Shown piece after piece: positions 13,509 through 60,227 of a stretch of 64,000 bases of DNA. The notes beneath the pieces are model-generated. The model was not told the DNA's origin. It made no database searches and saw only the letters and a program-made list of their open reading frames with translations. Made by a program: the position numbers and the translations under genes. The stretch comes from Falsiruegeria litorea R37 (lineage in GTDB: Bacteria > Pseudomonadota > Alphaproteobacteria > Rhodobacterales > Rhodobacteraceae): assembly GCF_900172225.1 (NCBI RefSeq), contig NZ_FWFO01000001.1:2108001-2172000 (forward strand), given 5' to 3'. Numbering within the stretch: position 1 is the stretch's first letter; each line of letters starts with the position of its first letter.

Positions 13509-13608
13509 AATTGGATCTCTCCTCCCTAATCCAAGCTCCGCCGTTTCCCGACGTAAGCCCTCTCAGGCTTGCACAGTCTGACGCAAAGTCAACAAAATGA
13601 TTTGTTTT

Positions 13609-14406
13609 TCAGGGCTTGAAGCTTAGAAAACCTGCTGCTTCCGACAAGAGACTGGAATAGTCGCGCTCCAACTCATCCGGAGAGACATGAAAGGCCGGCC
13701 CGCCCACGTTCAGGCCAAAAACCCGCGCACCATCCAGCGAAAAGACCGGAACCGCGATCCCGTTCACATCGGCGCGCCAATCCCCGTAACCAGTGCAATA
13801 GCCCTTTGATTGGAACTCGTCACAGGCCCTTTTGGTAGCCTGGGTCAGGTCCTCTTTGCTGCCCGCGCCATCCTGAACACCGTGGGTGATCGCTGCTTCA
13901 CGGCCGGCATCTGGCAGCCCCGCCAGAATGGCGCGCCCAATGGCCGAGCGAAAAAGCGGCAGGCGCGCGCCTACATGCATCGACAGCGATACATCCTCGC
14001 GCGAGCGGTGGACCGCAACATAGATCACCTCGGCCCGGTGCATTTCCGCCAGGGCGGCAGTGATGTAGGAATTCGGCCCGTTGCGTAATGTACGCAAAAC
14101 GTCTGCGGCACGATCGCAGATGTCCATGCCGGCCAGAACTCCAAACCCAAGCTGCAAAACTCCGACGCCCAGGCGATAGGTGCCACTACTCGGCTCATGC
14201 ACCAGATAGCCCAGCTGACACAGCGTATGCGTCAGCCGCGAGATCGTGGGTTTCGGCAGGCCGGTGCGTTCGGACAGGTCCAGATTGGTCAACGAGACTT
14301 CGCCCGGACGAAAACACCGCAGCACATCCAGCCCACGCGCCAAGGCGGTGACAAAGTTGCGATCTTTGCCTTCGTCTGATCCTGTACCGAACTCGGTTTG
14401 CGTCAT
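13609..14406 (-). CDS. IclR-family transcriptional regulator
   Basis: 265 residues. Seen: an N-terminal winged helix (LARGLDVLRCFRPGE, then LTNLDLSERTGLPKPTISRLTHTL) and the C-terminal IclR effector domain (LGVGVLQLGF, GARLPLFRSAIGRAILAGLPD, CDEFQSKGYCTGYGDWRADVNGIAVPVF). It sits 13 bases after the APH-kinase gene at the end of the long leftward catabolic operon and upstream of the orphan binding-protein gene, so it probably regulates the operon in response to an intermediate. Confidence 0.9.
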   Translation of the reverse strand: MTQTEFGTGSDEGKDRNFVTALARGLDVLRCFRPGEVSLTNLDLSERTGLPKPTISRLTHTLCQLGYLVHEPSSGTYRLGVGVLQLGFGVLAGMDICDRAADVLRTLRNGPNSYITAALAEMHRAEVIYVAVHRSREDVSLSMHVGARLPLFRSAIGRAILAGLPDAGREAAITHGVQDGAGSKEDLTQATKRACDEFQSKGYCTGYGDWRADVNGIAVPVFSLDGARVFGLNVGGPAFHVSPDELERDYSSLLSEAAGFLSFKP

Positions 14407-40099: not shown

Positions 40100-40189
40100 G
40101 GAGAGGTGCCGGAGTGGTCGAACGGGGCGGTCTCGAAAACCGTTGTGGGTGCAAGCCCACCCAGGGTTCGAATCCCTGTCTCTCCGCCA
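40100..40189 (+). tRNA. tRNA-Ser(CGA)
   Basis: 90 bases with encoded CCA. Seen: acceptor GGAGAGG pairing with TCTCTCC, discriminator G, the long variable arm typical of tRNA-Ser, the anticodon loop CTCGAAA with CGA, and the T-arm GGTTCGAATCC region. It reads serine codon UCG. Its 3' part is the integration site of the 20-kb island that follows. Confidence 0.97.
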
Positions 40190-40197
40190 CTATCCCC
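40128..40197 (+). repeat. attL: 70-bp direct repeat, 3' part of tRNA-Ser
   Basis: Identical over 70 bases with 60158-60227. It begins in the anticodon stem (CGGTCTCGAAAACCG) and extends 8 bases past the CCA end (ACTATCCC C). The next base differs (C here, T in attR). The left copy keeps the full tRNA intact. Confidence 0.95.
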
Positions 40198-40428: not shown

Positions 40429-41526
40429 TTATCGAATTCCGTTGTCACCATCCGCGGAAACTCGGGCCTTTTCTTCTTCTGTAAGATACCTGAGATAGTA
40501 CCGTTCAGTTGTCAGCACCGACCCATGGCCGATGTATTTCTGGACGCGATAGATAGACCAGCCTTCCTTGAGGCGTTCGATGGCAAATTTGTGCCTCAGA
40601 TCATGAAGTCGGGCATTGAACCCTGTTTCCTGTCCGTATTCCCAGAAGAGGTTCGACGGATCCTTGTAGTAGCCATGTTCTGTGGAATTCCAGAACACGT
40701 AGGGCGAGGCATTTGATCGCGGGATCTTCAACAGAATGTCGATAACCTCTTGTCGCAATGCGATTGCTCGAACCTTCTTGCCCTTGGTGTTTCTCAAAAT
40801 CGCCTGAACGTTCCCTTCAACGGGGTTTTCGAAGCCCGAGATATCCGACCAGAGCAACATCGCCATCTCAGTCACACGGCCACCAGTGGCATCCAGGAAT
40901 TTGGGAAAGTAGAACAAAGTGCCTGGTGCCCGCGCCGACAGCTTCTGAATGCTGGCTTCTGACGGTGGAACAATAACGGGCAGAATCTCTTTCATTCCTT
41001 GCTTTTCATAGTTTTGAACCGGATTTGTTTCGATCCATCCGTCATTTTTGATCGACCTCATGAGATTTGCGAACGCTGTCAGATCCCGATTGATGGTAGA
41101 CACCGTCACCCCTTCTGCGCGCCTACGTGACACGAATTCTGATACAACGGCTGTCGTAATTTCGGCTGCCATCAAATCTTTGATGTTACAACCAATGTCG
41201 TCGCAGTACCCGTCGATAACACGCAGGATCTGTCGCAGGCTGCACCTATAGCGTTTACGCGTCTCGGCACCCCACGAGCTGCTTTCCAAACCCAAAACGT
41301 CATAGAATTTGGCAAGGCCAGCACCAAAGCTCCAATCCAATTCACCAGCCTCATCCAGTCCTCTCAGTTCCTTTATGCGGCCTTTGGCTTTTTTCTCCGC
41401 GACTCTTTGAGAAGTTGTGCGAAGCGACTCTCGATGGGTGACGCCGTGGATCTTGACCCGGAGCCACCAATACTTGCTGTTATTTGGCTTGAAGATGTTT
41501 TTTGGTTTTTCTTCTTTGTTAGACAT
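40429..41526 (-). CDS. int: Tyrosine-recombinase integrase of the island
   Basis: 365 residues. Seen: an arm-binding-like N-terminus (KYWWLRVKIHGVTHRESLRTT), a core-binding domain (residues about 65-165), and the catalytic domain with Arg217 (GGRVTEM), His308-x-x-Arg311 (HDLRHKF), His334 (YIGHGS) and Tyr343 (ERYY). All five catalytic residues are present. It is the gene nearest the tRNA, and reads towards it, so it is the likely enzyme for integration at tRNA-Ser. It overlaps the upstream excisionase-like gene by 154 bases in another frame; the arm-binding segment in that overlap supports the long start. Confidence 0.9.
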   Translation of the reverse strand: MSNKEEKPKNIFKPNNSKYWWLRVKIHGVTHRESLRTTSQRVAEKKAKGRIKELRGLDEAGELDWSFGAGLAKFYDVLGLESSSWGAETRKRYRCSLRQILRVIDGYCDDIGCNIKDLMAAEITTAVVSEFVSRRRAEGVTVSTINRDLTAFANLMRSIKNDGWIETNPVQNYEKQGMKEILPVIVPPSEASIQKLSARAPGTLFYFPKFLDATGGRVTEMAMLLWSDISGFENPVEGNVQAILRNTKGKKVRAIALRQEVIDILLKIPRSNASPYVFWNSTEHGYYKDPSNLFWEYGQETGFNARLHDLRHKFAIERLKEGWSIYRVQKYIGHGSVLTTERYYLRYLTEEEKARVSADGDNGIR

Positions 41527-42975: not shown

Positions 42976-44337
42976 CTACGGTCCAAGCTTGCCCAATGCG
43001 ATGTCCTGCTTGAGGTTCAGCCAGTCCTTGGCGGCTGCGTCGCTTTCGCAAGAGATCCGATAGGACTCCCCGGCTTTCAGTGTTTGGTGACCAAGATGGG
43101 TCTGGATGATATCCGGTGCCCTCTTTGGATCAGCCAAGCGGAGGTATTCTGCAGCGAGAGTGCGGAGATCATGAGAGGGCACTCCTATGGCCTCTTTGAT
43201 CCTTTGGCTCGGAAGTTTTCGATCCGGGTTAAGATCCCCGAGTGTAAGCCAGTTCTTTCCCAGCAATTCATGATACCTCAGGTTCACAAACCGATCCGGG
43301 CCGCCTGCGAGGATAAGCAGGTCGAGAATTTCAGAAACCTCGTCCCAAAGCCGTCCAGCACCGGTTTCGGCAGCGTTCTTTTCCTGGAACCACTCCAACT
43401 CCCAAGTGCCGTCCGTATGACGAATGAGTTCCTTCCCGAGGCGCCAACCGGAAACGTCGCCGGTCCTGGCCGGTTTGTTCATATGAAGCGCAAGTAATGC
43501 TATCTGCTGGCGGACAACATGCGCTTGCGCGGCATGCCCTGGCATCCCGGCTAACCTGTCTCTGAGATCGCCGGTGATGCCGGCAATGAACTCGTATCCC
43601 CCCTTGCCCATAAGGGATTCAATTCGGGCAACCTTTTCCTTTTCTTCCATTTCGGCGAGTTCGAGGTGATATTTGACCAGCATGCGGATGCCATTCAGAT
43701 CTGCATTCGGGGCATCACCGTGCTTTCCCAGCGAGACCAGGCCGCCAAGATAGCCCGCGATTGTCCGATGTTTGATGCCGATTTCGCGGAAGCGCTCAGC
43801 AAGGCAGTAGGCGGTGTAAAAAGTCAGGGTTCCGTCTGCGTCGGTATCTGCCAGGATTGCCGCACAACGGTCGATCGAGGCAATATGGCGCTTCAGGGAG
43901 CTCGGCTTCAGGCTGGATGACGTCCTGAAACCCAAAAACATGAGCTGCCACTCCAGGGGCCAGGTGGATGGTGCGGCCGATGCAGGCTTTGATGGTGTTG
44001 CCGTCGTTGTCCGCCCTGAGGCGGCCTTTTTGCCAGGTCGTTGCGCATAATAGGCGCGCCGCAAGTCCCTGCCAGCTGCCGTCGACACCATCGGTGCGTA
44101 TGTGGCGAGCGCTCGCAACAGGGTTGCCAAAGTGGATTCCGATTTGGCGGCAGCTGTGAAGACCTGTGCTGATGGGTTGTCGAAGGGATCGCCGAAATCC
44201 TTTAGGGCTTGGAAGAACCGTCCAACCACCGCAGCTACACCCGGCGTCAGATGCACTTCAGGATCGAGCATTGCCCGGCGCACAGCTGCCGGGGCAGCTA
44301 AAAGGTGTTCCTTTGCCGTCAATCTTGCCATGCTCAT
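42976..44337 (-). CDS. Divergent tyrosine recombinase (second recombinase of the island)
   Basis: 453 residues. Seen: an N-terminal half with a Thr/Ala-rich linker (about residues 105-125), a core-binding domain and a catalytic domain with Arg291 (KPARTGD), His389-x-x-Arg392 (HDLRTLA), His417 (THLGHQ) and Tyr426 (GESYRI). The catalytic residues are all in place although overall similarity to int is low. Its ATG overlaps the stop of the 644-residue recombinase gene (ATGA); a second ATG at 44331 has better spacing to AAAGGAGG. It acts with the next gene as a recombinase pair. Confidence 0.85.
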   Translation of the reverse strand: MSMARLTAKEHLLAAPAAVRRAMLDPEVHLTPGVAAVVGRFFQALKDFGDPFDNPSAQVFTAAAKSESTLATLLRALATYAPMVSTAAGRDLRRAYYAQRPGKKAASGRTTTATPSKPASAAPSTWPLEWQLMFLGFRTSSSLKPSSLKRHIASIDRCAAILADTDADGTLTFYTAYCLAERFREIGIKHRTIAGYLGGLVSLGKHGDAPNADLNGIRMLVKYHLELAEMEEKEKVARIESLMGKGGYEFIAGITGDLRDRLAGMPGHAAQAHVVRQQIALLALHMNKPARTGDVSGWRLGKELIRHTDGTWELEWFQEKNAAETGAGRLWDEVSEILDLLILAGGPDRFVNLRYHELLGKNWLTLGDLNPDRKLPSQRIKEAIGVPSHDLRTLAAEYLRLADPKRAPDIIQTHLGHQTLKAGESYRISCESDAAAKDWLNLKQDIALGKLGP

Positions 44338-46268
44338 TTCCCTCCTTTCATTTTTCGGAACATTTCAGGGTGACGTTTCTTGAGCGCCGCCCGCACCTCA
44401 CGAGCCGCAGCTTCACCGCTATCGCGGCCATAGTGTTTTCGGACGGTATCTTCGTGGTCGCCGAGAACGGACGCAACCTTTGCGAAATTCCCGGGTTCGA
44501 GCGCCAGGATGAGGGTCGCAACAGAATGCCTTGCCTCATGAGGTGTCAGATCAATGCCGATAATCCGGGCGCCTTCATCCCAGATTTCAGCCATCGTACT
44601 TGGGGCGACGCAGCCACGCGGCAGGTTGACTTCGCGTTTTTGAAGCCGCGGTGTTGCGGCTCCGGGAATGATGTAGGCTGTGTCTTCAAGCTTTTTCAGC
44701 TCGAGATACCTCGCGCGATGTTCCGTCAGCCATTTCCATAGAATGCGGGCTTCATCACCCTCGAGATGAACAGTGATGACTTTGGCATTTTTCACCTCCT
44801 TTTCTTTGAAGGTCAGTCGCGCATGTTTGCCTTTTGCAAGCCAGTCAAGGTTTCCAGGAATGTTTCCAGCAATCCGATGCCTTAGACGGATGATGTTTGA
44901 CGTGCGTACGGGCCGGGAAACCTGAACGGCAAAGGCGACAGCCGTTGCGTAAAGACGCAATCCTTGAGCTTCGTGATCCTTGTTGTTCTCTTCCCGCGCT
45001 TTGCGAATTTTCTGTTCCGCCGCATAGGATATTGTATTGGGCGCGTTTACAAAGTTGGCCGCCAGATGAGGTGAGGACTGGATGAGGCGACATACAGCAT
45101 CGGCGCTGTCCGAGGTGATCTTGCCCGGTTTGATAACATTGTCGGCATTGAAGCGCCCGGCAAGATCAATCAGGGCAACCAGGTCGCCGCGTTTCATTCC
45201 GTGTCGGGCAAGGGTACGGAGATCGGTCAGACGCTTCCCAAGCGATTGCGATTGCGCCGGGTCCTTCAATTCATCCGATGACTTTGAGCGGTCAATTTGC
45301 TGCTGGCATGCTGCTTCGATGATTTCCCGGTCATACAGGTCTTCGAGATCGAGAAAGCTTGATGTGTCATGACCAATGTCTTCGGCGGCGCGCAGAAGCC
45401 AGGTGATGGCGGTGCGATAGCCGGATTTCGCAGCATCTGGATTTCCGGGTGCCTTTCGGGACGTCGAGGCCGTTTCATTCAACTCCGCCATGACGGTTTC
45501 AGGATCTTCGCCATTCTTGATCCGAGTGCGTGCGAGCTCGACCAGTTCCCTGGGGCCGGCAACGGCTGCGTTCATAATGCGCTCACTGGAGGCCCTGAGA
45601 TCTTCTGGCAGACTGTCCCAGGCAATACTGCGGGCACGGTCTGAACCCTTGGGCATGTCGAAGAATTTGGAAGGCAGAAGACCTGTGATTTCCGGATCGG
45701 CCGGAAAGTCTTCGATCAGCCGGTTCAGAAACGAAATGGCTTTTCGGATGGACTTGCGCTTCTCACTGGTCGCCTCGGCCATGATGAGGTCGATTTCCGA
45801 TTGCGTGATGTCTCGTGGTGAAACCCGAGCACGCGCCCTCAGGGAGGTCAGGCACCGCGATTTCCCGGTTGCGAATGTCGCTCCGCGCTCCAGGAACCCT
45901 TCCCGATCGGACACAAAGGAGATCAGCCTGTCCCAGTCATCGCGGCCGTAGACCGCTGGCGATTCTGACTGTGCTTCGTGAAAGCGTTTCAGAAGATTGC
46001 GCACACGCGAGTTGCCCCGGCGACGTGCTGCTTCCAGGTCCTTTGCTCTGGAGACAGCACCGTATGGGGCCGGTGCAATGTTCTTCTCGAAGTAGACTTG
46101 ATCGGCTGACAGAGACACCAGGTCATGATCCGTCAGGCCCAGACGGGCTGGGATCTTGTTGAGCTCATAGATGGCATCATCGGGTTCGCCGTTCTTTTCT
46201 GCCCAAGCCCGGACCTGGAGGAGATTTTGCTCAATGCTGTTGAAGTTGGCTTGGTGTTGGAAGGTCAT
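44334..46268 (-). CDS. Large tyrosine recombinase
   Basis: 644 residues. Seen: a long N-terminal half of unknown fold and a C-terminal catalytic domain with Arg in SRPVRTSNIIRLRH, His577-x-x-Arg580 (HEARHS), Asp-His 604-605 in place of Gly-His (LGDHED) and Tyr613 (RKHYGR). The size is near that of TnpB of Tn554-type elements and of integrases of GInt islands. RBS CAGGAG precedes the ATG; a 17-bp hairpin lies 25 bases upstream. With the 453-residue recombinase and the double-HTH gene it forms a three-gene leftward operon. Confidence 0.85.
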   Translation of the reverse strand: MTFQHQANFNSIEQNLLQVRAWAEKNGEPDDAIYELNKIPARLGLTDHDLVSLSADQVYFEKNIAPAPYGAVSRAKDLEAARRRGNSRVRNLLKRFHEAQSESPAVYGRDDWDRLISFVSDREGFLERGATFATGKSRCLTSLRARARVSPRDITQSEIDLIMAEATSEKRKSIRKAISFLNRLIEDFPADPEITGLLPSKFFDMPKGSDRARSIAWDSLPEDLRASSERIMNAAVAGPRELVELARTRIKNGEDPETVMAELNETASTSRKAPGNPDAAKSGYRTAITWLLRAAEDIGHDTSSFLDLEDLYDREIIEAACQQQIDRSKSSDELKDPAQSQSLGKRLTDLRTLARHGMKRGDLVALIDLAGRFNADNVIKPGKITSDSADAVCRLIQSSPHLAANFVNAPNTISYAAEQKIRKAREENNKDHEAQGLRLYATAVAFAVQVSRPVRTSNIIRLRHRIAGNIPGNLDWLAKGKHARLTFKEKEVKNAKVITVHLEGDEARILWKWLTEHRARYLELKKLEDTAYIIPGAATPRLQKREVNLPRGCVAPSTMAEIWDEGARIIGIDLTPHEARHSVATLILALEPGNFAKVASVLGDHEDTVRKHYGRDSGEAAAREVRAALKKRHPEMFRKMKGGK

Positions 46269-47978: not shown

Positions 47979-49055
47979 ATGAATAAAGCCACTGAACCAT
48001 TTCGTTTTATTGATCTATTTGCCGGAATCGGCGGCCTCCGGATCGGTTTTGAAGCAATCGGTGGAGTATGTGTATTCACCTCCGAGTGGAACAAATACTC
48101 TCAAGAAACCTATAGGGCGAATTTCCCAGACGATGACCACAAAATCGAAGGTGACATCACAGCGATCAATGAAAAGGACGTCCCGGCACACGACTTGTTG
48201 CTCGCGGGTTTCCCATGCCAGCCCTTTTCAATCGCTGGGGTATCCAAGAAAAATGCCTTGGGAAGAGCTCATGGTTTTGCCGACGAGACTCAAGGCACGC
48301 TATTCTTCGATGTCGTACGGATCCTAAGGCACCATAAACCGAAGGCATTCTTGCTGGAGAACGTGAAGAACCTTCTGAGCCATGACAAGGGGAATACGAT
48401 GCGTGTCATTTTGCATGCATTGGACGAACTCGATTACGATGTCGACTATCGCGTCATAGATGCCCAAAGTTGGGTCCCCCAGCATCGGCAACGGATTTTC
48501 ATATCTGGTTTCCGTAGAGATTTTCCGACCAACTTTACCATGGAAGATGTGGAGATTCCTGAAGGGCGCAAACCCATTCTTAAAGATATCCTTCATCCTG
48601 AAGATGGATCTGAAATTGCTGAATTTCCGTTTACAGTGGGCTCGCTTGCTGAAGTGTCGGAAAAGTATACCCTGACCCCCAAACTCTGGGATTATCTTCA
48701 GAGGTACGCTGCAAAACACAAAGCTGCGGGCAATGGATTTGGTTTCGGCTTGCGAGGGCCTGGCGATGTCGCCAGAACGCTGTCCGCAAGGTATTACAAG
48801 GACGGTTCAGAAATCCTTATTGAGCAGGATGGAGACATTCCGAGGCGCCTGACCCCACGGGAATGCTCACGTCTAATGGGGTTTGACCGACCAGGTAACA
48901 ATCGCCCCTGGATCATTCCTGTTTCGGATACCCAAGCTTACCGCCAATTTGGGAACGCAGTGGCCGCACCGGTCGCCATTGCGATCGCAAATGCCATGGA
49001 ACCGTGGCTTACCAACACGGTGGCTATCAGGTCAAGAAAGGTTAATCGTGCCTAA
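47979..49055 (+). CDS. DNA (cytosine-5) methyltransferase
   Basis: 358 residues. Seen: motif [15 protein letters not shown] (residues 12-25), motif [10 protein letters not shown] with the catalytic Cys80, motif [10 protein letters not shown] (ENV 127-129), motif VIII QHRQRIF (168-174), and motif [12 protein letters not shown] near the C-terminus; the target domain lies between VIII and IX ([11 protein letters not shown] follows it). Start ATG 47979 was chosen because motif I then sits at the normal distance; a TTG reading 32 codons longer adds unlike sequence. It overlaps vsr by 8 bases and begins the cargo operon. Methylation protects host DNA; the target site cannot be read from the sequence, although the Vsr and EcoRII-N-like partners point to a CCWGG-like site. 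Confidence 0.93.
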
Positions 49056-49545
49056 GACACGGCACCCGATGAGCCGATCACAGATGATGTCGCGGATCGG
49101 GTCCAAGGACACAAAGCCTGAACTTGTCGTCAGGCGCACACTACACGCCTATGGATTTCGTTTTCGACTTCACAGAAAGGAACTTCCGGGAAAACCAGAT
49201 CTTGTGTTGAGCAAATACCGGTCAGCAATTTTTATCCATGGGTGTTTTTGGCATGCGCATGAAGGCTGCCGATATTTCAGACTGCCAAAGACACGGCGTG
49301 AATTCTGGCAAGAGAAACTTCTCTCCAACAGAAAGCGCGATCAGGCAGCGGTTCAAAGTCTTATCGATGGCGGCTGGCGCGTTCTAATTGTTTGGGAATG
49401 TGCAACTCGGGAAATTCAGATTGAGAAACTTGTCACCTGTATCACCGATTGGTTGCAGTCCCATGAAAAATTTGCAGAAATATCTTCTGACACACGGCGA
49501 AAAAGTCATTCAATAGCAAACCAGAAAGCGAAAACGAGCGTTTGA
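49048..49545 (+). CDS. vsr: Very short patch repair endonuclease (Vsr)
   Basis: 165 residues. Seen: [20 protein letters not shown] at the N-terminus, [24 protein letters not shown] with the catalytic Asp and His, and zinc ligands Cys/His in [10 protein letters not shown]. Vsr nicks beside T:G mismatches formed by deamination of 5-methylcytosine, which lessens the mutation cost of the methyltransferase. GTG 49048, with AAGAAAGG upstream, gives the family N-terminus and overlaps the methylase gene; the downstream gene starts one base after its stop. Confidence 0.93.
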
Positions 49546-49546
49546 A

Positions 49547-51172
49547 ATGAGCAACGAACTGATTAACGAACCAGACGCCCCAAGGCTGATCAACGGTCTA
49601 CGGGATACAGGCTATGACTTTCGGACAGCTTCTGCCGACATCATAGACAACTCGGTGGCTGCTGGCGCTCAGGAGATCAATGTTCGCATCGATTTGATGC
49701 AAGACGGACGAAAATTTGTCTATTTCGGCGATGATGGTTCCGGTATGAATGCCGACGGTGTGTTCAAGGCGATGCGCTACGGGGCTCCCGAGCGTGAAAA
49801 CCCTGAAAGCCTTGGCAAGTTTGGCCTCGGGTTGAAAACCGCCTCGAGTTCCGTGTGCCGCCAATTCACGCTGATCTCAAGAAACTCACCCGATGAAGCC
49901 CTGAGCAAGCTTTCCTGGGACCTTGATCACGTCGAAGCATCGGGGCTCTGGGAAATGAGCAGGGAACCGGTGACGGTTGATGAGGAAGAAGCCTTCGAGG
50001 AACTGTGTGGGGAAGGAAGTGGAACGCTCGTCGTATGGTCGAAATGCGACAGGATCCTCTCAAAGAACTATGACGAACCCGGTGGTGCGAAGGAAAAGGC
50101 TGCGATTGGCCGTCTCTCTGCTGGATTGCAGAAACACGTAAGTGAGATCTATCACCGTTTTCTGGATCAAGCCGATACCCGAGAGCGGAATATCACGATT
50201 TCTGTTGATGGCGTCAAAGTCGGGCCATGGGATCCATTTTTCCGAGAACGCTCGGAACAGGTCCTTGCTGAGAAACAACAGGCAATGGAGGTGCAGGTCG
50301 AAGACGGGAGTACACACAATGCTTCGGTCGCGGCATGGATCCTTCCTCACAGTGACGACCTGGACGACGACGAAAAGAGCCAAGCTCGCATTACCAACAG
50401 GGGCCAGGGATTCTACATCTACAGGGAAGGTCGGTTGATAAGTAGCGGTGGATGGCTCAGTGTTTTCGGCGGTCTCGACCCACATATGTCATTGCTACGA
50501 ATTGAATTTGATTTTGGGCACGAACTGGATGAGGCATTTCATATCGACGTGAAGAAATCCCGTGTTCTCTTTGATCCGGCCCTGTCCGAATATCTTGAAA
50601 AGCTTCTCGGACCAGCGCGCAGGGAAGCAAACCTGCGATACCGAAAGAAAGCCCAGAAAGCCGCAGCGAAGGCCAAGGTTGATCATACTTCTTCGAACCG
50701 CACTGTGGAGGGCACCAAAAACACGCGGCAAGCAACAGTTGAGGGTGCGGATCCCGACACGCAAAGTGCAGTGATCTCGAACAATCGCGGGCCGAAGATC
50801 AAAATTCGCCAGAAGATCGAAAACAACGTCGAACCTGGTAGTCTCTATATTGAAGCCGTTGACACGATCACGTCAGGAGACCTGTGGGAACCCAGCTATA
50901 GGAGTGCGGGAGTTGAGGGACATGTCGGTGCAGTATTGTTGAACAAGCATCACGACTATTACCAAAAAATCTACCTTCGCGCGGCAAGCAGCGGCTATTC
51001 CGTACAGGGAATGGATCTTCTGCTCTGGGCCTTCACTGCAGCCGAGCAGAACAACACCAACGAGGAACTGGATCCGATTTTTTCAGATATCCGCGAAGAG
51101 ATTTCCTCAAACCTTAGAAAGCTGTTGCGCGACGTGACCACACCGACCAGCGACGACCTTGAGGACGAGTAG
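49547..51172 (+). CDS. MORC/MutL-like GHKL ATPase
   Basis: 541 residues. Seen: the Bergerat ATP site with N-box ADIIDNSVAAGA (residues 30-41), G1 GDDGSGM (61-67) and G2 SLGKFGLGLKTAS (88-100), as in MORC, MutL and Hsp90 families. The general-base Glu of the N-box is an Asp here (Asp31-x-x-Asp-Asn35). A transducer domain seems to follow (FYIYREGRLISSGGWLSVFGG), and the rest is an Arg/Lys-rich region and an unknown C-terminal domain. ATP-driven dimer closing on DNA is the expected activity. It is 1 base after vsr and 9 bases before the HNH gene. Comparable ATPases occur beside methylases and nucleases in described restriction-type systems. Confidence 0.87.
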   Translation: MSNELINEPDAPRLINGLRDTGYDFRTASADIIDNSVAAGAQEINVRIDLMQDGRKFVYFGDDGSGMNADGVFKAMRYGAPERENPESLGKFGLGLKTASSSVCRQFTLISRNSPDEALSKLSWDLDHVEASGLWEMSREPVTVDEEEAFEELCGEGSGTLVVWSKCDRILSKNYDEPGGAKEKAAIGRLSAGLQKHVSEIYHRFLDQADTRERNITISVDGVKVGPWDPFFRERSEQVLAEKQQAMEVQVEDGSTHNASVAAWILPHSDDLDDDEKSQARITNRGQGFYIYREGRLISSGGWLSVFGGLDPHMSLLRIEFDFGHELDEAFHIDVKKSRVLFDPALSEYLEKLLGPARREANLRYRKKAQKAAAKAKVDHTSSNRTVEGTKNTRQATVEGADPDTQSAVISNNRGPKIKIRQKIENNVEPGSLYIEAVDTITSGDLWEPSYRSAGVEGHVGAVLLNKHHDYYQKIYLRAASSGYSVQGMDLLLWAFTAAEQNNTNEELDPIFSDIREEISSNLRKLLRDVTTPTSDDLEDE

Positions 51173-51181
51173 AGCTTTCGA

Positions 51182-52000
51182 ATGCTGAAAGATCACGCAG
51201 ACCTGATTGCATCTGAGTTGAGCGAAGGTACGGGTGCGTCTGTCGCTTTGAGCATTGTAGCCTCTGGAATTCGGTCAGGTTTGGATATTTGGTTCCAGGA
51301 TTTGGAGAAACGACAGGGACCGATTGTCGAACTCCGACCGCATGGTCTGAAAGCTCACCGGGTGCAACTTCGGTTCGGGAATTTCTCAAGGCAGATTTTG
51401 AAACAGATCTCCGAAGCCCCTGCGGAAGACATCCAACTGGCACGATCCCTCGTAACCAGCATCAGGGTCGAGGCCAACGTGGAAATTCCTGGTCAAAGCC
51501 TTGAATGCTGGACGGTTGATGATGGTAGATTTACGATAGCAGCTACCCTCAAACACGAAACCACGGCAGATGGCGGTGATGCGATCGTCGCTACTTGCCG
51601 GGAAGTCATTGTGCCCCTCATGGCTGCAATGGCGGAACTGATTGGTTACGACGAAATAGTCCCTGAGGACACGTCAGGAGAATTGGAGGGAGCCCTTTCC
51701 CTCGCGCTTGTTCGGAAGCGAGAGAGAAATCCGAGAAACAGGCTCCTTTGCCTCAGAGTGCATGGCTACAAGTGCTTTTGCTGCGGGATCAAACCGCAGT
51801 TGAAATATGGACCTGCGGGCAAGGTTCTTGAGGTACACCACCTGCAACCAGTGTCTCAATTGCATGAGGAGAAGCACTACGATCCAAAGACAGATCTTGT
51901 TCCTCTTTGCCCGAATTGCCACCGAGCAGTCCACACACGGCGGCCCACGCCGTATTCGATCGAAGAACTGATGAGTATGATGGATACGAATGTCCACTGA
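51182..52000 (+). CDS. HNH endonuclease
   Basis: 272 residues. Seen: an N-terminal domain of unknown fold (residues 1-175) and a C-terminal HNH nuclease: CFCCG (Cys198, Cys201), LEVHHLQPVS (His219, His220), DLVPLCPNCHRAVH (Cys243, Cys246, His247, His251). The four Cys form a zinc site and the His residues the metal-binding catalytic core. It is the obvious DNA-cutting subunit of the cluster. The gene overlaps the SNF2 gene by 11 bases. McrA-like methyl-dependent nucleases have this fold, so cutting might depend on the methylation state of the target. Confidence 0.88.
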   Translation: MLKDHADLIASELSEGTGASVALSIVASGIRSGLDIWFQDLEKRQGPIVELRPHGLKAHRVQLRFGNFSRQILKQISEAPAEDIQLARSLVTSIRVEANVEIPGQSLECWTVDDGRFTIAATLKHETTADGGDAIVATCREVIVPLMAAMAELIGYDEIVPEDTSGELEGALSLALVRKRERNPRNRLLCLRVHGYKCFCCGIKPQLKYGPAGKVLEVHHLQPVSQLHEEKHYDPKTDLVPLCPNCHRAVHTRRPTPYSIEELMSMMDTNVH

Positions 52001-53813
52001 TGTGAATTCACTTCCCGAAAAATTTGCTGACCTTCCGGATGCTCTCCCAGAGGGCATTCGTGTGAGTGGTCGTGTCCTTGATCCAGTGGTCATCATCGAC
52101 AAGGAAGATGGGAAACTCGTCGCAAAAATGGCCGGGCGCCGAACAGTAAAAGGTAAAGAAAAACTGATACTTGCCTTCGGCAATGAATTCGACTGGGTTC
52201 TTGATGACAAGACCATTCGCCCGTTACCTCATGATGCTGAGGAGTTGCTGAAAGCTTCCATGGACGTGGATCATGACGGAAGTGTTGGATACGGACAGCT
52301 CCGACAGCACATCGCCTCATCGGATGGTTCCTTGAGCATCCAACTCACTGATGCAGCGGGGCAATCGGGGTCGGTATCCGCTTCCCGATATCCAGACGAG
52401 CTGAAAATGCCCGGTCTAAACGCTGATTTGTACCCCTACCAAGCCAAAGGCGTAGCCTGGATGTGGGAAACCGTCCAAGCGCACGGAGGATTGATCCTCG
52501 CAGACGAAATGGGCCTTGGGAAAACCCTGCAGATAATTGCGCTGCTCGTGAAGGATCCCCCACCAGAGCAATCACCCGCATTGATCATATGCCCAACCAG
52601 CCTCATTGCAAACTGGGTCCGTGAAATCGAAAGGTTTGCACCCTCCCTGTCGGTCCTGGTTCACCGTGGCGCCTACAGAACCGGTGTGTTCACCGGTCTG
52701 CAGAGTGCTCAGGTAGTCATCACCACGTATGACACTATGGTGAACGACATCTCGATTTTTTCCGCATTTGAATGGTCTTGGGTAATTTGTGACGAGGCTC
52801 AGGCCATTAAGAACCCGGCCTCTGGGCGGAGGAATTGCGTTGCGACCATTCCACGCGTCCGAACTGTTCCCATGACCGGGACACCTGTTGAAAATAGCCT
52901 TGTGGACCTATGGTCACTGGCCGACTTCGCCATTCCCGGACTTCTCGGCACATTGTCTGATTTTGAGGCCAATTTCCCTGATGGGATCGAGACGGCGGCA
53001 GAAGTCGCAAAAATCGTCGAACCTGTCATGCTGAAGCGCCGTGTCGCAGACGTAGCCGACGATCTTCCTGAGCGTATAGATATCGAGATGCCTCTGGAAA
53101 TGGAAAGTGCTCTCGTTGAGCATTACAACGCGGTTCGGGAAGCCACTCTGGAGAAATATCCAGTCGCCGGGGCGCTCGTCGCCACCCTGCAGCTGCAGTT
53201 GGTGTGTGCTCACCCTTGGCTGCGTGTATCCGGCATCGATGTCACCGACACCGAAAATGCCGACATCGTTGAAGTTGTAGATCTTCCGCTGATTAACACC
53301 AAGATGGAGCAAACTGTCCGATTGATCCGAGAGGCTTTCACGACAGGCCGGAAAGTCTTGGTCTTCGCCCTGTTCAATCGTCTCGGGGATTTGCTGCAGC
53401 AAGCGGCTCCCGACCTTTCTGGCGCCTATTGGGGCGCAATCAACGGAGGAACACCGCAAGCAGACCGACAAGGCATAATCGATGAATTCTCTGCCGAGGA
53501 CGGCCCGGCCATCTTGGTATTGAACCCGAAGGCTGCCGGAGCAGGCTTGAATATCACTGCAGCGACCGTCGTCATCCACATGACACCAGTCTGGAATCCT
53601 GCATTGGAAGCTCAGGCAAGCGCAAGGGCACACCGAAGGGGGCAGACACTACCGGTCACGATCTACCACCTTTATTACGAGGATACTGTCGAAAGGATTA
53701 TGCTTGATCGTTCGGCTTGGAAAAACAAAATGGGCAACGAGATAGCCCCGGTGTCTACAAGAGATGATGAAGATTTGAGGAATGCCCTGAACATCAGGCC
53801 ACAATTGCCATGA
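51990..53813 (+). CDS. SNF2-family DNA translocase/helicase
   Basis: 607 residues. Seen: Q/Walker A region YQAKGVAWMWE then ADEMGLGKT (residues 171-179), Walker B DEAQ (268-271), motif III MTGTPVENS (295-303), and motif VI QASARAHRRGQT (starts at about 542). The SWI2/SNF2 group moves along duplex DNA with ATP rather than unwinding it. Residues 1-140 hold an unknown N-terminal domain. The gene overlaps both neighbours (11 bases before, 4 bases after). In a restriction system it could move DNA past the nuclease or remodel the complex. Confidence 0.9.
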   Translation: MSTDVNSLPEKFADLPDALPEGIRVSGRVLDPVVIIDKEDGKLVAKMAGRRTVKGKEKLILAFGNEFDWVLDDKTIRPLPHDAEELLKASMDVDHDGSVGYGQLRQHIASSDGSLSIQLTDAAGQSGSVSASRYPDELKMPGLNADLYPYQAKGVAWMWETVQAHGGLILADEMGLGKTLQIIALLVKDPPPEQSPALIICPTSLIANWVREIERFAPSLSVLVHRGAYRTGVFTGLQSAQVVITTYDTMVNDISIFSAFEWSWVICDEAQAIKNPASGRRNCVATIPRVRTVPMTGTPVENSLVDLWSLADFAIPGLLGTLSDFEANFPDGIETAAEVAKIVEPVMLKRRVADVADDLPERIDIEMPLEMESALVEHYNAVREATLEKYPVAGALVATLQLQLVCAHPWLRVSGIDVTDTENADIVEVVDLPLINTKMEQTVRLIREAFTTGRKVLVFALFNRLGDLLQQAAPDLSGAYWGAINGGTPQADRQGIIDEFSAEDGPAILVLNPKAAGAGLNITAATVVIHMTPVWNPALEAQASARAHRRGQTLPVTIYHLYYEDTVERIMLDRSAWKNKMGNEIAPVSTRDDEDLRNALNIRPQLP

Positions 53814-54244
53814 CGAAAAAGACATACAGAAAAACACTGAGCGCCAATGATGCCGGCGAGACGAAGAGCCACCAAGCCGGAATGCTCATTCCCAAGGCAG
53901 ACGTTGAGTTTAGGTCTTTCCTCGGAGACTTGGATCCAACCATCAAGAACCCACGGAGAACCATTCACTGCCTTGATGAACATGGTGAGGAGATCGAGTT
54001 GCAGTTCATTTACTATAACAACAAACTCCACGACGAAACCGGAACCCGAAATGAGTTCAGGCTTACCTGCCTGACTGGGTATCTAAGACAGTCCGGGGCA
54101 AAATCCGGTGACGAATTGGAGCTTTCCAAGGACGAAGGCCAAGAATTTTTCAAATTACGGCTGATCGCCAATTCCCACTCTGACGAAGACACAGGTGAAA
54201 CATCCAATCGGATTGTACTGAGAGGATGGAGAAGGATTCATTGA
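53810..54244 (+). CDS. Stand-alone EcoRII-N-like (B3 fold) DNA-recognition protein
   Basis: 144 residues. Seen: YRKTLSANDAGETKSHQAGM (residues 6-25) and IYYNNKLHDETGTRNEFRLT (67-86). These match the effector-binding N-terminal domain of the type IIE restriction enzyme EcoRII (LSANDTGATGGHQVG and YYN-x-RNE-x-RIT in the family). In EcoRII this domain binds CCWGG. There is no nuclease domain, so the protein would recognise DNA for the nuclease and translocase of the same operon. An acidic linker (DEDTGE) is followed by a terminal tail RIVLRGWRRIH (134-144) that recurs in the next protein. It overlaps the SNF2 gene by 4 bases and the next by 19. Confidence 0.82.
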   Translation: MTKKTYRKTLSANDAGETKSHQAGMLIPKADVEFRSFLGDLDPTIKNPRRTIHCLDEHGEEIELQFIYYNNKLHDETGTRNEFRLTCLTGYLRQSGAKSGDELELSKDEGQEFFKLRLIANSHSDEDTGETSNRIVLRGWRRIH

Positions 54245-56484
54245 ACTTATTTCAGGACGTGGACCAAGGTTTACGCAAAGACGAACCTCACAAACCGGCC
54301 ATTTCACCTAAAATGAGCCACCGACACCTTCATTTGTCACCTGGAACCAGCACTCTTCTCGAAAACCAGGGTTACATTTTCATCGAAGACCTCGAGAGCG
54401 CACTTTCCTCCGTCTCTCTGAAACAGGAGGCAAAAGAAGACCTCCTTGCCAACTTGCTTAGACTTGTATCCTGCATCCAGGGAGCCAATGTTGACTGGAT
54501 TGAATACTACGAGGGGTGTGAGGATGGCTTAGATGAGCTCTTCTTTGTTTGCCCTGAATTCGACGGAATCGACTCTGAAAACCCACTGTTTGCTGTAAAC
54601 AGAAAGTCATTCGGCAACGCTGGTGCCATGTTTGAACGGGAGGGGCTGAAGAGTTTTGGAGAGTTGCTGGATGCACTTCGTATCGGGATATCACCTCTCC
54701 CTTCCGGGTTGGGAGCAAAGAAGCTGGCCGCATTCTGGACCCAGCTTCTTTCGTTGGCAAAGGAAGCTCGCTCAGATAATTCCGTCCTGTCTCGGCTTGC
54801 TGCGTTGCATCCTCTGGTGTCCCCGCTTCCAAACCGCGATACCTCTCGGGAAGAGCCTGAAATCATTTCAGTTCTCAGTGAACAGACCCGGGAACTGACC
54901 ATAGGATGCCTTCACCTTGGGCCAAAAACCAGGAAGCTCATCGAGAACGGCCTGGGTACCATCGGAGACCTTGCCTCAGCCCCGCAATCAGCACTTCTGG
55001 ACATCCCCGGAATGGGAAAGGCAACCACCAAGCGGATTGATGGGGCGTTGACTGCAATTGCAGAATCCCAAAACCCGGACGGGTCGATCGCCTGGGAAGT
55101 TTACTGCGAGGGAATGAACATCGGGCTGTTCCCTGAAGAACCTCAGGAGGGCAGCTTTTCCCAAATACTTGCCCGCCTTCCTGCGGTCCTGAAAGACGCT
55201 TTTGAAACCTGTGAAAGCGAAGAGGACGGTATCATTCTCGCAAGCAGGATCATGGCCCCGCCCAAGGAAAGGCTGAGCCTCGAAGCGGTCAGCGATCTTT
55301 TCACCGAAAAGGTGACAAGGGAAAGGGTGAGACAAAAGGAGGCAAAAATCCTTACGCGCCTGGCCAACGCTCTGATCCATGATGACTATGCAAATGCGCC
55401 CTACCGCTTCCGTCCGGAATTTTCGGAACCGTGGAAAGCTGCCGCTGAATACTTTTCAAAATCTGATGACGACATTTCCTTCGTTGATTTTGTCAACGGT
55501 CTTGAAAAGGCGTGGTCCGTGCCGAGACGGGAGTTTGCAGACGCCCTGCCTCTTGTAACTGCGATAATTACCGGGGAGCTTGCGGCCGGGAAGGAGTTTC
55601 AGTCATCGGTACTGTTTGACACTACCCCGTTCAAGAAGGGAGATCACCCGATCGTTGACCTCCCCTTGAAGCTACTTCAAGTTCACAAATCGGCAGCAGT
55701 TCTTCAAGAACAGGGTTTTGCGACGGTTGGTGAATTTCTCACGGCGATAAAGAGTGGAGCCCTATCTGCTTCAGACACCTCCCACACCCGCCGGGTGTAT
55801 GACAGCATTCGAATCCTGGCCAAGTGCACCTACCCTGATGGGCTGGTCGATTGGTGGAAATATACGGATTTGACGGAAGTGGCCTTTCTTCCGATATACG
55901 ATGTCAATGATCCGCTGAGCTTCCTTGAAAGCATAATCCCGACAACTGTTTCCGTTTTGAACTCTCGGAAAATTTCGGCACATGCGGCCGATGTCTTCAC
56001 CCGGCGCTCTTCCGTTGCACTGTTGGACAGGCCAACCACCGAGGCGCTTGCTTCAGACTTGGGCGGTTACGGCTCAACGATCAAACGCATCGAAACGGAT
56101 TTGTTGGGCTTTCTGAGTGATGTGTACATTGGCCAGAACCTTGCAATATCCACGGTGCACCTCAGTACCGCCTTCCTGGAGCACTGGGCTTTTGTCGCTG
56201 AATGTTTCGAGAAGGCCGATGGTGACACAAGCCTGGCCGCCGACATGTTGGCTGCGGGATGGGACGTCGAAAAAGAACAAATCACACCATATCTGCCTGC
56301 CCTGGTTGCTATCGTCACCGGCTATCCAATGGGGAGGCTTCACCGGTACACAAAATTGCGGCCCGCCGACGCTCAAAAACCCAAGCACGACATTCAGGAT
56401 GTCCCAACCATTCAGGAAGAAGAAGACGTCGAAGAGTTTGCTCCGCAACGGATCGTCCTTCGAGGCTTCCGAAGGGGCCACTGA
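54226..56484 (+). CDS. Alpha-CTD-like repeat protein with a sigma-70 region-4-like HTH
   Basis: 752 residues, no family known to me. Seen: four helix-hairpin-helix segments like the RNA polymerase alpha C-terminal domain (about 34-80, 125-180, 225-280 and 478-530); the clearest reads LHLGPKTRKLIENGLGTIGD then LLDIPGMGKATTKRI. Three of them are followed by a W segment (VDWIEYY at 89, SIAWEVY at 287, VDWWKY at 541). At 349-381 lies a sigma-region-4-like HTH: LSLEAVSDLF then VTRERVRQKEAKILTRL, close to the consensus VTRERIRQIEAKALRKL. The C-terminal tail RIVLRGFRRGH matches the tail of the preceding protein. It is translationally coupled to that gene (19-base overlap) and ends the operon. It probably binds DNA; contact with host RNA polymerase is possible but unproved. 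Confidence 0.8.
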   Translation: MEKDSLNLFQDVDQGLRKDEPHKPAISPKMSHRHLHLSPGTSTLLENQGYIFIEDLESALSSVSLKQEAKEDLLANLLRLVSCIQGANVDWIEYYEGCEDGLDELFFVCPEFDGIDSENPLFAVNRKSFGNAGAMFEREGLKSFGELLDALRIGISPLPSGLGAKKLAAFWTQLLSLAKEARSDNSVLSRLAALHPLVSPLPNRDTSREEPEIISVLSEQTRELTIGCLHLGPKTRKLIENGLGTIGDLASAPQSALLDIPGMGKATTKRIDGALTAIAESQNPDGSIAWEVYCEGMNIGLFPEEPQEGSFSQILARLPAVLKDAFETCESEEDGIILASRIMAPPKERLSLEAVSDLFTEKVTRERVRQKEAKILTRLANALIHDDYANAPYRFRPEFSEPWKAAAEYFSKSDDDISFVDFVNGLEKAWSVPRREFADALPLVTAIITGELAAGKEFQSSVLFDTTPFKKGDHPIVDLPLKLLQVHKSAAVLQEQGFATVGEFLTAIKSGALSASDTSHTRRVYDSIRILAKCTYPDGLVDWWKYTDLTEVAFLPIYDVNDPLSFLESIIPTTVSVLNSRKISAHAADVFTRRSSVALLDRPTTEALASDLGGYGSTIKRIETDLLGFLSDVYIGQNLAISTVHLSTAFLEHWAFVAECFEKADGDTSLAADMLAAGWDVEKEQITPYLPALVAIVTGYPMGRLHRYTKLRPADAQKPKHDIQDVPTIQEEEDVEEFAPQRIVLRGFRRGH

Positions 56485-56645: not shown

Positions 56646-58160
56646 TTACGTCCAGCTCTCAGCATAGAGTTGTTCGATCTGTTCGACCTCGTCATCACTC
56701 AGGGCCTCGAATTCGCCACCCCGTGCTCTCTTTGAGAGCTTGCCGTCATTCTGTGCCAGGAACTTTCGAAGCAATTCAATTTCCTTGTTGGGCATATCGA
56801 CAATGCGGGAAAGCCCCATGGCAAACCGGTCATATCCTTTGAGGAAACCAACCTCCCGTGGCAGGTCTTCATCAATCGTGGTCTGGACACAACGTGCCAG
56901 GAAGGTGGCCTGTTCCGTTGCGTCGAAATACCGGTAGTGATGCGCCGTCTCTCCGGCGATCTTAACATTTCCCTTCGGATCGGCCGCCCAATCAATAAAT
57001 GGCAGAAGAGGACCAGAATAGGCCCTCAGAACCCGGTTGTACTCTTCAATGTTTCTCAGGATCACGGCGCTGATGGGGAATACAACTCCGGGAGGGTTGA
57101 ACCCGGCGCGGGCCAGCACGTGATGGAACAGGTACCTGTGAAGCCTGCCATTTCCGTCGACATAGGGGTGAATGAAGACGAAACCAAATGCCAGCACTGC
57201 CGCCGTCAGGATCGGATGCTGATGCCGCGCCAATGAGATCTCATCGTAATCGATCAGACCTGCCATCAGGCTATCAAGGTCTTCCCATCGGGCGCTGATA
57301 TGCGATGGGATCGGCTCCATCGTGTTGCGATCATGGGAGCCGATGAACCCTTCTTCCTTCCTGATGCCAAGCCTCACAAACCTGGCGTCTCCGATCACGA
57401 TTTGCTGGAGTCGGTTGAGCTCATCGACAGAAAGCTCATGCTGCCCGGCTTCTCCGATGGCCTGTCCCCATCGAGCCCCCTGGGCAGGGGTAGGCTTTTC
57501 ATTCTCAATGGCAAATGATGCCTTGCTGTCATCCAGGAGCATGAAGGCCGCGGCCCGGCGCATCAGGTCTTCTGGAACCCTGCCAGCCGCTGCACTGGCC
57601 TCATCCGTCAGGTTTCTGACTTCAAGCAGGTGAAACAGTTCCGGAGTCCGCCGGACAGTCGGGCAAAATGCGGGCGTACCGGGTAGGTTGTCATGGATTT
57701 TGTGGCGCGCAGAATTCTCTACGATGATGCCGGTATAGTGCAGTTCCTCATCGAGGATACTGACGTACTTTACCTTGCCGAGATCCGGCAGGTCCAGCCG
57801 CGCGCCAGTCATCCATTCGTAAATGAACCACAGGCGCCGGGAAAACGTGCCCGTCACACGGTGCTGTACCATCTCGGTGATCTCTTCGGCAGGGACAACC
57901 TGAAAAAGGCGATCAAGCACACTGAGATTGATGCCTTCATATCGGAAAGCGAGTCGAAGATGACCGATCAGATTATCTTTTGGCTGTTGGCGTGATCGCA
58001 GCATGATCCAGTCATCGGTGGAGACCGGACTGTGCCGGTCAGCAACGGCCATCAGACGCGGAGGCATGGGGACTTGAAGATTGTAGGTGTCGACGATCCA
58101 GGCATACCCGGCCGGGTTACCTGGTTCTGGCAGTCTTCGACCATGAAAGTGGGCTATCAT
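56646..58160 (-). CDS. Fic-domain protein (adenylyltransferase-like) with an inhibitory motif
   Basis: 504 residues. Seen: the Fic core HPYVDGNGR (residues 331-339, consensus HxFx(D/E)GNGRxxR) and a preceding alpha-inh-like SxxxEN motif at 215-220 (SFAIEN), the arrangement of Fic proteins held inactive by an internal helix. Fic enzymes move AMP or related groups onto protein hydroxyls. The N-terminal 180 residues are of unknown fold and the C-terminal 100 residues may contain a winged helix. It converges on the defence operon, so it is probably transcribed separately; its upstream region has unusual repeats. It may be a toxin or regulatory module of the island. Confidence 0.88.
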   Translation of the reverse strand: MIAHFHGRRLPEPGNPAGYAWIVDTYNLQVPMPPRLMAVADRHSPVSTDDWIMLRSRQQPKDNLIGHLRLAFRYEGINLSVLDRLFQVVPAEEITEMVQHRVTGTFSRRLWFIYEWMTGARLDLPDLGKVKYVSILDEELHYTGIIVENSARHKIHDNLPGTPAFCPTVRRTPELFHLLEVRNLTDEASAAAGRVPEDLMRRAAAFMLLDDSKASFAIENEKPTPAQGARWGQAIGEAGQHELSVDELNRLQQIVIGDARFVRLGIRKEEGFIGSHDRNTMEPIPSHISARWEDLDSLMAGLIDYDEISLARHQHPILTAAVLAFGFVFIHPYVDGNGRLHRYLFHHVLARAGFNPPGVVFPISAVILRNIEEYNRVLRAYSGPLLPFIDWAADPKGNVKIAGETAHHYRYFDATEQATFLARCVQTTIDEDLPREVGFLKGYDRFAMGLSRIVDMPNKEIELLRKFLAQNDGKLSKRARGGEFEALSDDEVEQIEQLYAESWT

Positions 58161-60157: not shown

Positions 60158-60227
60158 CGGTCTCGAAAACCGTTGTGGGTGCAAGCCCACCCAGGGTTCG
60201 AATCCCTGTCTCTCCGCCACTATCCCC
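60158..60227 (+). repeat. attR: 70-bp direct repeat, partial tRNA-Ser
   Basis: Identical to 40128-40197. It is a 3' fragment of tRNA-Ser (from the anticodon stem) plus 8 bases, with no acceptor 5' strand or D-arm, so it is not a functional tRNA. The chromosome resumes at 60228. Confidence 0.95.

Follow-up and report, generated by a model that had tools for sequence, protein, structure and literature searches.

The locus considered here raises two questions: is the seven-gene set at 47,979-56,484 of this stretch a defence system of a new kind, and what does the last of its proteins do? The stretch, below called the window, is 64,000 nucleotides of the genome of Falsiruegeria litorea R37 (contig NZ_FWFO01000001.1). 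The first-pass annotation had described the genes as a new multi-subunit restriction or defence system. Multi-subunit restriction appears to be the best reading, but a system of this kind has been known since the work of Iyer, Abhiman and Aravind in 2008 (PMC2292703), whose SWI2/SNF2-type MORC operons, in the available text of that paper, cover six of the seven genes. We think it rather probable that the set is a complete SNF2-type MORC restriction-modification (R-M) operon, intact-looking in its catalytic motifs, that acts at CCWGG, and in which a swappable partner docks through a short C-terminal tail shared with the recognition protein. It is the seventh gene and this tail that look new.

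The seven open reading frames (ORFs) are all present on the + strand, and adjoining genes overlap or sit at most 9 bases apart; the coordinates of all six junctions, collected with the other features in Table 1, agree with the spacing described at first. Proteins were named from Pfam, PADLOC and NCBIfam profile searches. For the first six genes the families and motifs named earlier hold, with strong Pfam or NCBIfam matches: a Dcm-type C5 methyltransferase, a Vsr endonuclease, a MORC ATPase, an HNH endonuclease, a SNF2-family ATPase and a standalone EcoRII-N/B3 DNA-recognition protein, here called E2N. The signature motifs looked for in the seven proteins are present. In the MORC protein they are DIIDNS, DDGSGM and GKFGLGLK, together with the S5 motif GFYIYREGRLI at residue 288; in the available text of Iyer et al. 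2008 (PMC2292703) this motif (GhXhhpXXRhl) is the mark that separates MORCs from paraMORCs. The best solved relatives of the protein are human MORC2 (9e-10), with MORC2 and MORC3 leading the list. Judged from the gene families, the operon is predicted to have both restriction and modification activity, with recognition, cutting and movement probably placed on separate chains, as had been proposed. A scan for promoters and terminators gave no excess above shuffled sequences, and among the PHROGs no family matches gene 7, E2N or MORC.

All seven genes recur in identical order in four loci: the window (genome G000), Citreicella sp. C3M06 (L002; gene 7 is 86% identical to the window's), an uncultured Rhodobacteraceae (L003; 99%) and the Fuscovulum ytuae plasmid NZ_CP124536 (L004, genome G104), where identity to the window is 35% for gene 7, 63% for MORC, 51% for HNH and 48% for E2N. 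The hosts of the last three belong to the Rhodobacteraceae/Paracoccaceae. Co-occurrence of the last two genes with the methylase-MORC-HNH-SNF2 group had been suggested as a check against chance assembly, and since Fuscovulum has all seven in this order with a gene 7 only 35% identical, the comparison of sequences indicates that the set is not one.

Profiles built from the operon proteins and scanned over the collected loci define two subtypes. Subtype A has the order MORC-HNH-SNF2-E2N and comprises 13 loci (the window, L002, L003, L004, L009, L049, L050, L051, L052 and L172-L175, the last four being genomes G005, G361, G316 and G096; L062, which ends at a contig edge, is left out). Subtype B has the order SNF2-E2N-MORC-HNH and comprises 10 loci (L010-L014 and L053-L057, leaving out two Rhizobium plasmids, H6 and H9, of subtype-B appearance). 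L009 is the P. putida plasmid NZ_CP043577, with dcm inverted, and L049 is a contig whose start is inverted and incomplete. Five of the subtype-B loci, L010-L014, have a gene for an EcoRII-type enzyme as well, the L014 copy being broken; EcoRII-C matches the L010 enzyme at 1.8e-67, and both L010 and L011 pair the SNF2-E2N-MORC-HNH module with an intact enzyme of this type.

Where subtype A lacks gene 7, the partner slot is filled by an AIPR protein of ~704 aa (PF10592, E ~1e-100 in the four tested). The AIPR gene is convergent and downstream of E2N in six loci (L049-L052, L172, L173). On the P. putida plasmid it lies elsewhere, on the same strand as E2N, in an unannotated gene that spans the record start. 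A profile search found one AIPR each in G005 and G361, and none in the genomes G000, G316, G104 and G096. In this small sample of subtype-A loci gene 7 and AIPR are thus mutually exclusive. The two are not homologous (hhalign probability 0.2), and gene 7 is rejected as a remote AIPR on the same ground. A tree of MORC, HNH and SNF2 from 12 subtype-A and 3 subtype-B loci separates a clade of gene-7 loci (support 100) from one of AIPR loci (93). L174, which has no partner, is nested among the AIPR loci (supports 95 and 92) and has therefore probably lost its AIPR; a single swap between gene 7 and AIPR would suffice to explain the distribution. The 13 loci are not independent: the window and L003 are 99% identical, L050 and L051 are 94% identical, and L052 and L173 differ hardly at all.

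SNF2-type MORC restriction operons of this kind are rare. Three of 50,697 phage records have a distant match to MORC, none of them covering 80% of it, and none of the E. coli genomes searched has a DNA match to the core of the P. putida operon. Two further observations concern the neighbours of these operons. In G316, the genome without a tagged partner, the subtype-A operon is faced by converging genes for DrmA (655 bits) and DrmB (264 bits), at L174 4076-8973, and the 19-kb P. putida plasmid carries the Zorya type II genes ZorA2, ZorB2 and ZorE2 as well as its subtype-A operon (L009 13353-14996; L161 997-2800).

The most informative feature of the locus, absent from the first-pass annotation, is the C-terminal tail shared by its last two proteins. 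All 13 E2Ns of subtype A carry R-[IV]-x-[LI]-x(4-5)-R-x-H at their end, and the partner ends in R-[IV]-x-[LI]-x4-R-x-H in 12 of the 12 partners found, that is in 12 of the 13 loci (five gene 7 proteins, one of them the G096 remnant, and seven AIPRs). The hosts of these tail-bearing loci span alpha- and gammaproteobacteria. Among 5,375 distinct ORF ends (at least 100 codons) in 2.1 Mb the pattern is found at 24, every one an E2N, gene 7 or AIPR; this background is enriched in relatives rather than random, and includes 80 SNF2 loci (of 585 relatives) as background only. Further, in the six-frame ORFs of ten subtype-A loci every match sits exactly at the C-terminus, while residue frequencies give a chance expectation of 2e-6 per C-terminus. 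None of the 10 subtype-B E2Ns has the pattern, and neither has any of the five AIPRs from MORC operons in which the absence of E2N was checked (L070, L072, L077, L159, L160). These controls rule out the tail as a general trait of AIPRs or of MORC operons.

The tail is also better kept than its surroundings. Between the window and Fuscovulum 9 of 11 tail residues are retained in both E2N and gene 7, against 8 of 24 in the linker before the tail of gene 7, 4 of 16 in that of E2N, and 56 of 115 in the E2N core. As DNA, the two tails of the window share 26 of 42 bases and use the same codon at 3 of the 10 identical positions (stop included). Since synonymous sites differ in codons, the tail is kept at the protein level. 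An inverted repeat could have produced the shared ends in the six loci where E2N and AIPR converge; a DNA repeat or terminator stem is nevertheless rejected, as the codons differ and as the gene-7 loci and P. putida have both genes on one strand. No description of the shared tail was found in the searched literature, which here and below means open-licence papers only. The tail, a short peptide at the end of both proteins, looks like a plug joining the recognition protein to an interchangeable partner.

Next, we consider the target. The model enzymes Dcm, Vsr and EcoRII each act at CCWGG. Since the Dcm of the window is 59% identical to that of E. coli K-12, in an alignment that runs through the region between motifs VIII and IX, and since E2N retains the SANDxG and TRNExRxT segments of EcoRII-N, CCWGG is the predicted target of the system. 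The E2N profile matches the EcoRII-N structure 3hqf at 3.1e-13, and Foldseek places the E2N model (mean predicted local distance difference test, pLDDT, 83.7) in the EcoRII-N/B3 fold (3hqf 9.6e-6, 1na6 6.8e-6); RAV1 is among the matches. In the model pLDDT falls below 50 in the linker, residues 124-137, and recovers to ~81 over residues 141-144, which form a strand bridge; the prediction is thus of a tail folded back onto its own B3 domain. By pattern, 9 of the 10 subtype-B E2Ns end in a related segment of the VLKLGSGWRVI type, and nothing else in those loci has a second copy of it. On these two grounds our reading is that the E2N tail would be an old structural strand, copied in AIPR and gene 7 for use at the same site. 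E2N matches are found in 11 of 394 genomes of the family (E <= 1e-8), 6 of them standalone and 5 in frames of 403-424 aa, as long as an EcoRII enzyme; in the class 3 of 385 genomes match, two in frames of 406 and 435 aa.

The sequences themselves show which genes are present, their order and recurrence, the intact motifs, and the tail with its co-occurrence. From this we infer CCWGG targeting, ATP-dependent cutting and docking by the tail, in a mechanism that would run as follows. Dcm would methylate CCWGG in the host, and Vsr would repair the T:G mismatches arising from deamination. E2N, an EcoRII B3 domain freed from its nuclease, would bind unmethylated CCWGG on incoming DNA and trigger the SNF2 motor and the MORC ATPase; these may move along, clamp or loop the DNA and would position the HNH nuclease for cutting. 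The licensing of SNF2, MORC and HNH by E2N on unmethylated DNA is suggested by analogy with CglI/NgoAVII, a precedent from biochemistry which, in the available text of PMC4267653, has a C5 methylase, a B3-domain protein that finds the site and a separate SF2 ATPase that hydrolyses ATP for cutting. DNA looping by MORC is proposed in the part of Iyer et al. 2008 (PMC2292703) at hand. The seventh protein would be an accessory that docks on the recognition machinery by a C-terminal peptide copying E2N's own tail. This tail is most likely the closing strand of the B3 domain, carried on a flexible linker, and the partner's copy would either replace the strand in trans or sit in the same pocket of a third subunit. 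Since the tail is all that the partners have in common, the slot could be filled by unrelated proteins, AIPR in most relatives and gene 7 here.

A more specific version, which we hold as doubtful, is an address code by strand exchange: the E2N strand would be released or displaced at an unmethylated CCWGG, and the effector with the copy, AIPR or gene 7, would plug in. If so, the effector would be recruited only where foreign DNA is recognised; any protein with the tail would be recruited, and effectors would be swapped in evolution by changing the carrier of the 11 residues.

A possible alternative, somewhat tentative, retains the same restriction system but lets the tails of E2N and of AIPR or gene 7 dock on a third subunit (MORC, SNF2 or HNH), either competing with each other or filling the two halves of a MORC dimer. 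In both tails an invariant His is the very last residue of the protein, as would be expected for a pocket reading the free carboxylate, and the subtype-A MORC ends in an acidic stretch while the tails are basic. However, the E2N model packs its own last residues onto the B3 domain, and the related end of the subtype-B E2N, lacking a second copy in the locus, fits a strand of E2N itself.

The nature of gene 7 bears on a further explanation. The first-pass annotation called the protein alpha-CTD/sigma-4-like. Its low-confidence model matches a solved C-terminal domain of the RNA polymerase alpha subunit (alpha-CTD), 7vpd_S (probability 1.00, target TM 0.85 and root-mean-square deviation 1.0 over 54 columns, though with E = 1.3), and residues ~312-385 match bacterial sigma factors. 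By sequence both labels are weak: HHH_5 is found at 1.8e-5, below Pfam's own cut-off, RNA_pol_A_CTD at 0.042, Sigma70_r4 at 0.14, and RpoD_Cterm of NCBIfam at 5.2e-4. The protein also contains an internal duplication, residues 216-468 against 469-710 (hhalign probability 98.8, E 5.4e-17, 25% identity, 220 columns). With such parts gene 7 could regulate the operon as a transcription factor or sigma-like protein, outside the restriction complex, the more so as MZA operons too carry a sigma-70-family protein (MzaA; L159). We find this improbable: gene 7 shares the tail of E2N, the tagged protein of the relatives, AIPR, belongs to no transcription factor family, and there is no full sigma core. 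Gene 7 is also rejected as MzaA, since it aligns only to the last ~55 positions of the NCBIfam model for that protein, with 17.8 bits against a cut-off of 800; that model matches whole sigma-70 proteins in 299 of 299 genomes, none above the cut-off. As a separate observation, the sigma-70-family protein of a Thalassospira MZA operon (L159 988-3240) gives a weak match to the gene 7 profile (22.7 bits, E 1.4e-6), which weakly suggests a parallel use of sigma-like modules across MORC operons. In the reading we favour, the alpha-CTD/helix-hairpin-helix and sigma-4-like modules probably help to load or hold the complex on DNA; this role in loading or tethering is a guess.

Gene 7 is rare, and in the closest relatives AIPR takes its place. 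At E <= 0.001 it matches in 4 of 394 genomes of the family: it is full length in the window's own genome and in the Fuscovulum genome, a remnant in G096, and a 58-residue match in G193. In the class 100 of 337 genomes match; apart from the own genome, the matches listed cover only residues ~269-401, the sigma-like part, with at most 27 bits. One of 72,556 plasmid records matches, no viral contig does, and a scan of genome contigs, which finds close relatives only, gave 2 loci. Since it can be lost or replaced, gene 7 is likely an accessory.

Two other explanations fare worse. The shared tail could be a degradation or stability tag that matches the recognition subunit and its partner at low levels, for example on entry into a new host; degrons often take the form of a free C-terminal peptide behind a flexible, acidic linker, and these systems sit on mobile elements. 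This we consider quite improbable, given that alpha- and gammaproteobacterial hosts have the same tail, that it is missing from the subtype-B E2N and, in related hosts, from the AIPRs of other operons, and that its end is unlike degrons of the ssrA (LAA) type. A chance addition of the last two genes to a MORC operon, or a set in decay, is very improbable: gene 7 is broken in G096 and missing from wider relatives, but the same order in Fuscovulum, the 19-base overlap of E2N and gene 7 and the intact motifs speak against it, and the recurrence already refutes it.

A number of observations weigh against the reading of a CCWGG-specific operon with a docking partner. L174 keeps the tail on E2N with no tagged partner nearby and no AIPR anywhere in its genome, so the tail is not used only for a partner. 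Fisher tests of co-occurrence give 9.6e-6 and 1.3e-3, but these p-values overstate the evidence, because the loci are not independent and the presence or absence of the tail follows one deep split of the tree. Among the EcoRII residues that we take to contact DNA, H36, R94, E96 and R98 match in E2N, while Y41, K92 and K97 differ. CCWGG is not specially avoided in the operon (22 observed, 25.1 expected) or the island that carries it (56 and 57.8), compared with 99 observed and 127.3 expected in the rest of the window; composition adds no independent support for the target. The gene 7 model has low confidence (mean pLDDT 55.8) and no Foldseek match at E <= 0.001. Further, gene 7 may be dispensable, because in G096 an internal deletion breaks it (L175 2417-2733), leaving a still recognisable C-terminal tail, while the other six genes are kept at intact length.

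How does the operon compare with known systems? A comparison with DISARM, Mza and MORC R-M sets had been proposed, and it is the last of these that fits: the operon has a MORC ATPase with GHKL and S5 motifs, SNF2, HNH, a B3 protein, a cytosine methylase and Vsr. The MORC operons of Iyer et al. 2008 (PMC2292703), as far as the available text describes them, have a SWI2/SNF2 helicase, HNH or EcoRII-like nucleases, a VP1/RAV (B3) protein, cytosine methylases and Vsr, and both subtypes match their second class; gene 7 and the shared tail have no mention in that text. The AIPR relatives of subtype A (NZ_CP043577, G005, G361 and the IMG/VR contigs L049-L052) have the same vsr-MORC-HNH-SNF2-E2N core where complete, with the tail on E2N and on a second protein, which is AIPR there and gene 7 in the window.

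MZA (mzaABCDE) resembles the operon in its MORC-like ATPase, its sigma-like component and, through the relatives, AIPR. The operon differs in having SNF2, HNH and EcoRII-N in place of a Z1 helicase, a PD-(D/E)xK protein and a full sigma factor, and it is rejected as MZA: the MzaB equivalog reaches 187.7 bits against a cut-off of 850, MzaA the score given above, and none of the seven proteins matches the Z1 helicase (MzaC), MzaD or AIPR (MzaE). DISARM is rejected as well, with no DrmA or DrmB among the matches listed for the seven proteins (the best 25 for two of them); the DISARM-type DrmMII and DrmD matches fall on methylase and SNF2 domains. So is Zorya: neither ZorA nor ZorB is among the matches, and only the ATPase part of ZorD matches. 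CglI/NgoAVII (PMC4267653, available text) shares the C5 methylase, the B3 recognition and the separate SF2 ATPase, but its B3 domain is fused to a PLD nuclease, its ATPase has Z1, and the three-gene set described there has no MORC, HNH or Vsr; no Pfam match to PLD or Z1 occurs among the seven proteins. EcoRII, a type IIE enzyme, is similar in its EcoRII-N/B3 domain, the Dcm-like methylase and the CCWGG target, predicted here, whereas its catalytic EcoRII-C has no Pfam match among the seven proteins. The first-pass claim that no named system has exactly this gene list stands for the searched literature, but six of the seven genes belong to the class described in the available text of Iyer et al. 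2008 (PMC2292703).

Table 1. Features of the operon and of the island that carries it; positions are those of the window.
Feature	Coordinates	Strand	Start and stop at junctions	Evidence
C5 DNA methyltransferase, Dcm type	47979..49055	+	stop 49055	PF00145 (DNA_methylase) 2.9e-85; motifs present; CCWGG predicted
Vsr endonuclease	49048..49545	+	GTG 49048; stop 49545	Pfam Vsr 3.9e-30; TIGR00632 5.8e-42; GKPDL and HGCFWH
MORC GHKL-S5 ATPase	49547..51172	+	ATG 49547; stop 51172	PF13589 (HATPase_c_3) 7.2e-24
HNH endonuclease	51182..52000	+	ATG 51182; stop 52000	PF01844 1.8e-7; EVHH, CxxC pairs, LVPLCPNCH; first ~170 residues without assignment
SNF2-family ATPase	51990..53813	+	ATG 51990; stop 53813	PF00176 (SNF2-rel_dom) 3.3e-57; PF00271 5.9e-15; DEMGLGKT, DEAQ, QASARAHRRGQ
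E2N, standalone EcoRII-N/B3 DNA-recognition protein, 144 aa	53810..54244	+	ATG 53810; stop 54244	PF09217 4.9e-11
Gene 7, 752 aa, alpha-CTD-like and sigma-4-like parts	54226..56484	+	ATG 54226; 19-base overlap with E2N	weak Pfam/NCBIfam matches, model, internal duplication
E2N C-terminal tail RIVLRGWRRIH, residues 134-144	54209..54241	+		
Gene 7 C-terminal tail RIVLRGFRRGH, residues 742-752	56449..56481	+		
tRNA-Ser gene	40100-40189			
Left 70-bp direct repeat, 3' part of tRNA-Ser	40128..40197	+		exact repeat
Tyrosine integrase of island	40429..41526	-		PF00589 6.9e-16
Right 70-bp direct repeat	60158..60227	+		exact copy of left repeat

The surroundings of the operon in the 4.69-Mb host genome are those of a mobile element. 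A tRNA-Ser gene, an integrase and exact 70-bp repeats at both ends are present, which makes the operon cargo of an island of ~20 kb between 40128 and 60227. Also in the island are a 644-aa ORF at 44334-46268, whose integrase match is weak (0.0035, below cut-off), and one of 453 aa at 42976-44337 with none. Directly downstream of the operon and convergent with it lies a Fic-domain gene of the PADLOC candidate family PDC-S24 (5.4e-185), at 56646-58160; a near-identical ORF is found in L003, at 12423-13937.

The prediction that bacterial MORC systems are restriction systems dates from 2008, and no biochemical study of an SNF2-type one was found in the searched literature. The locus described here is a compact, intact set with a predicted CCWGG target, a recognition domain like that of a commercial enzyme, and a concrete docking hypothesis in an 11-residue tail carried by non-homologous proteins. 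If the reading is right, it would explain how a single restriction core is able to work with differing accessory proteins and give a handle on the role of AIPR proteins. It would also provide a model, open to testing, for MORC ATPases; how these act in eukaryotic gene silencing is still a matter of debate.

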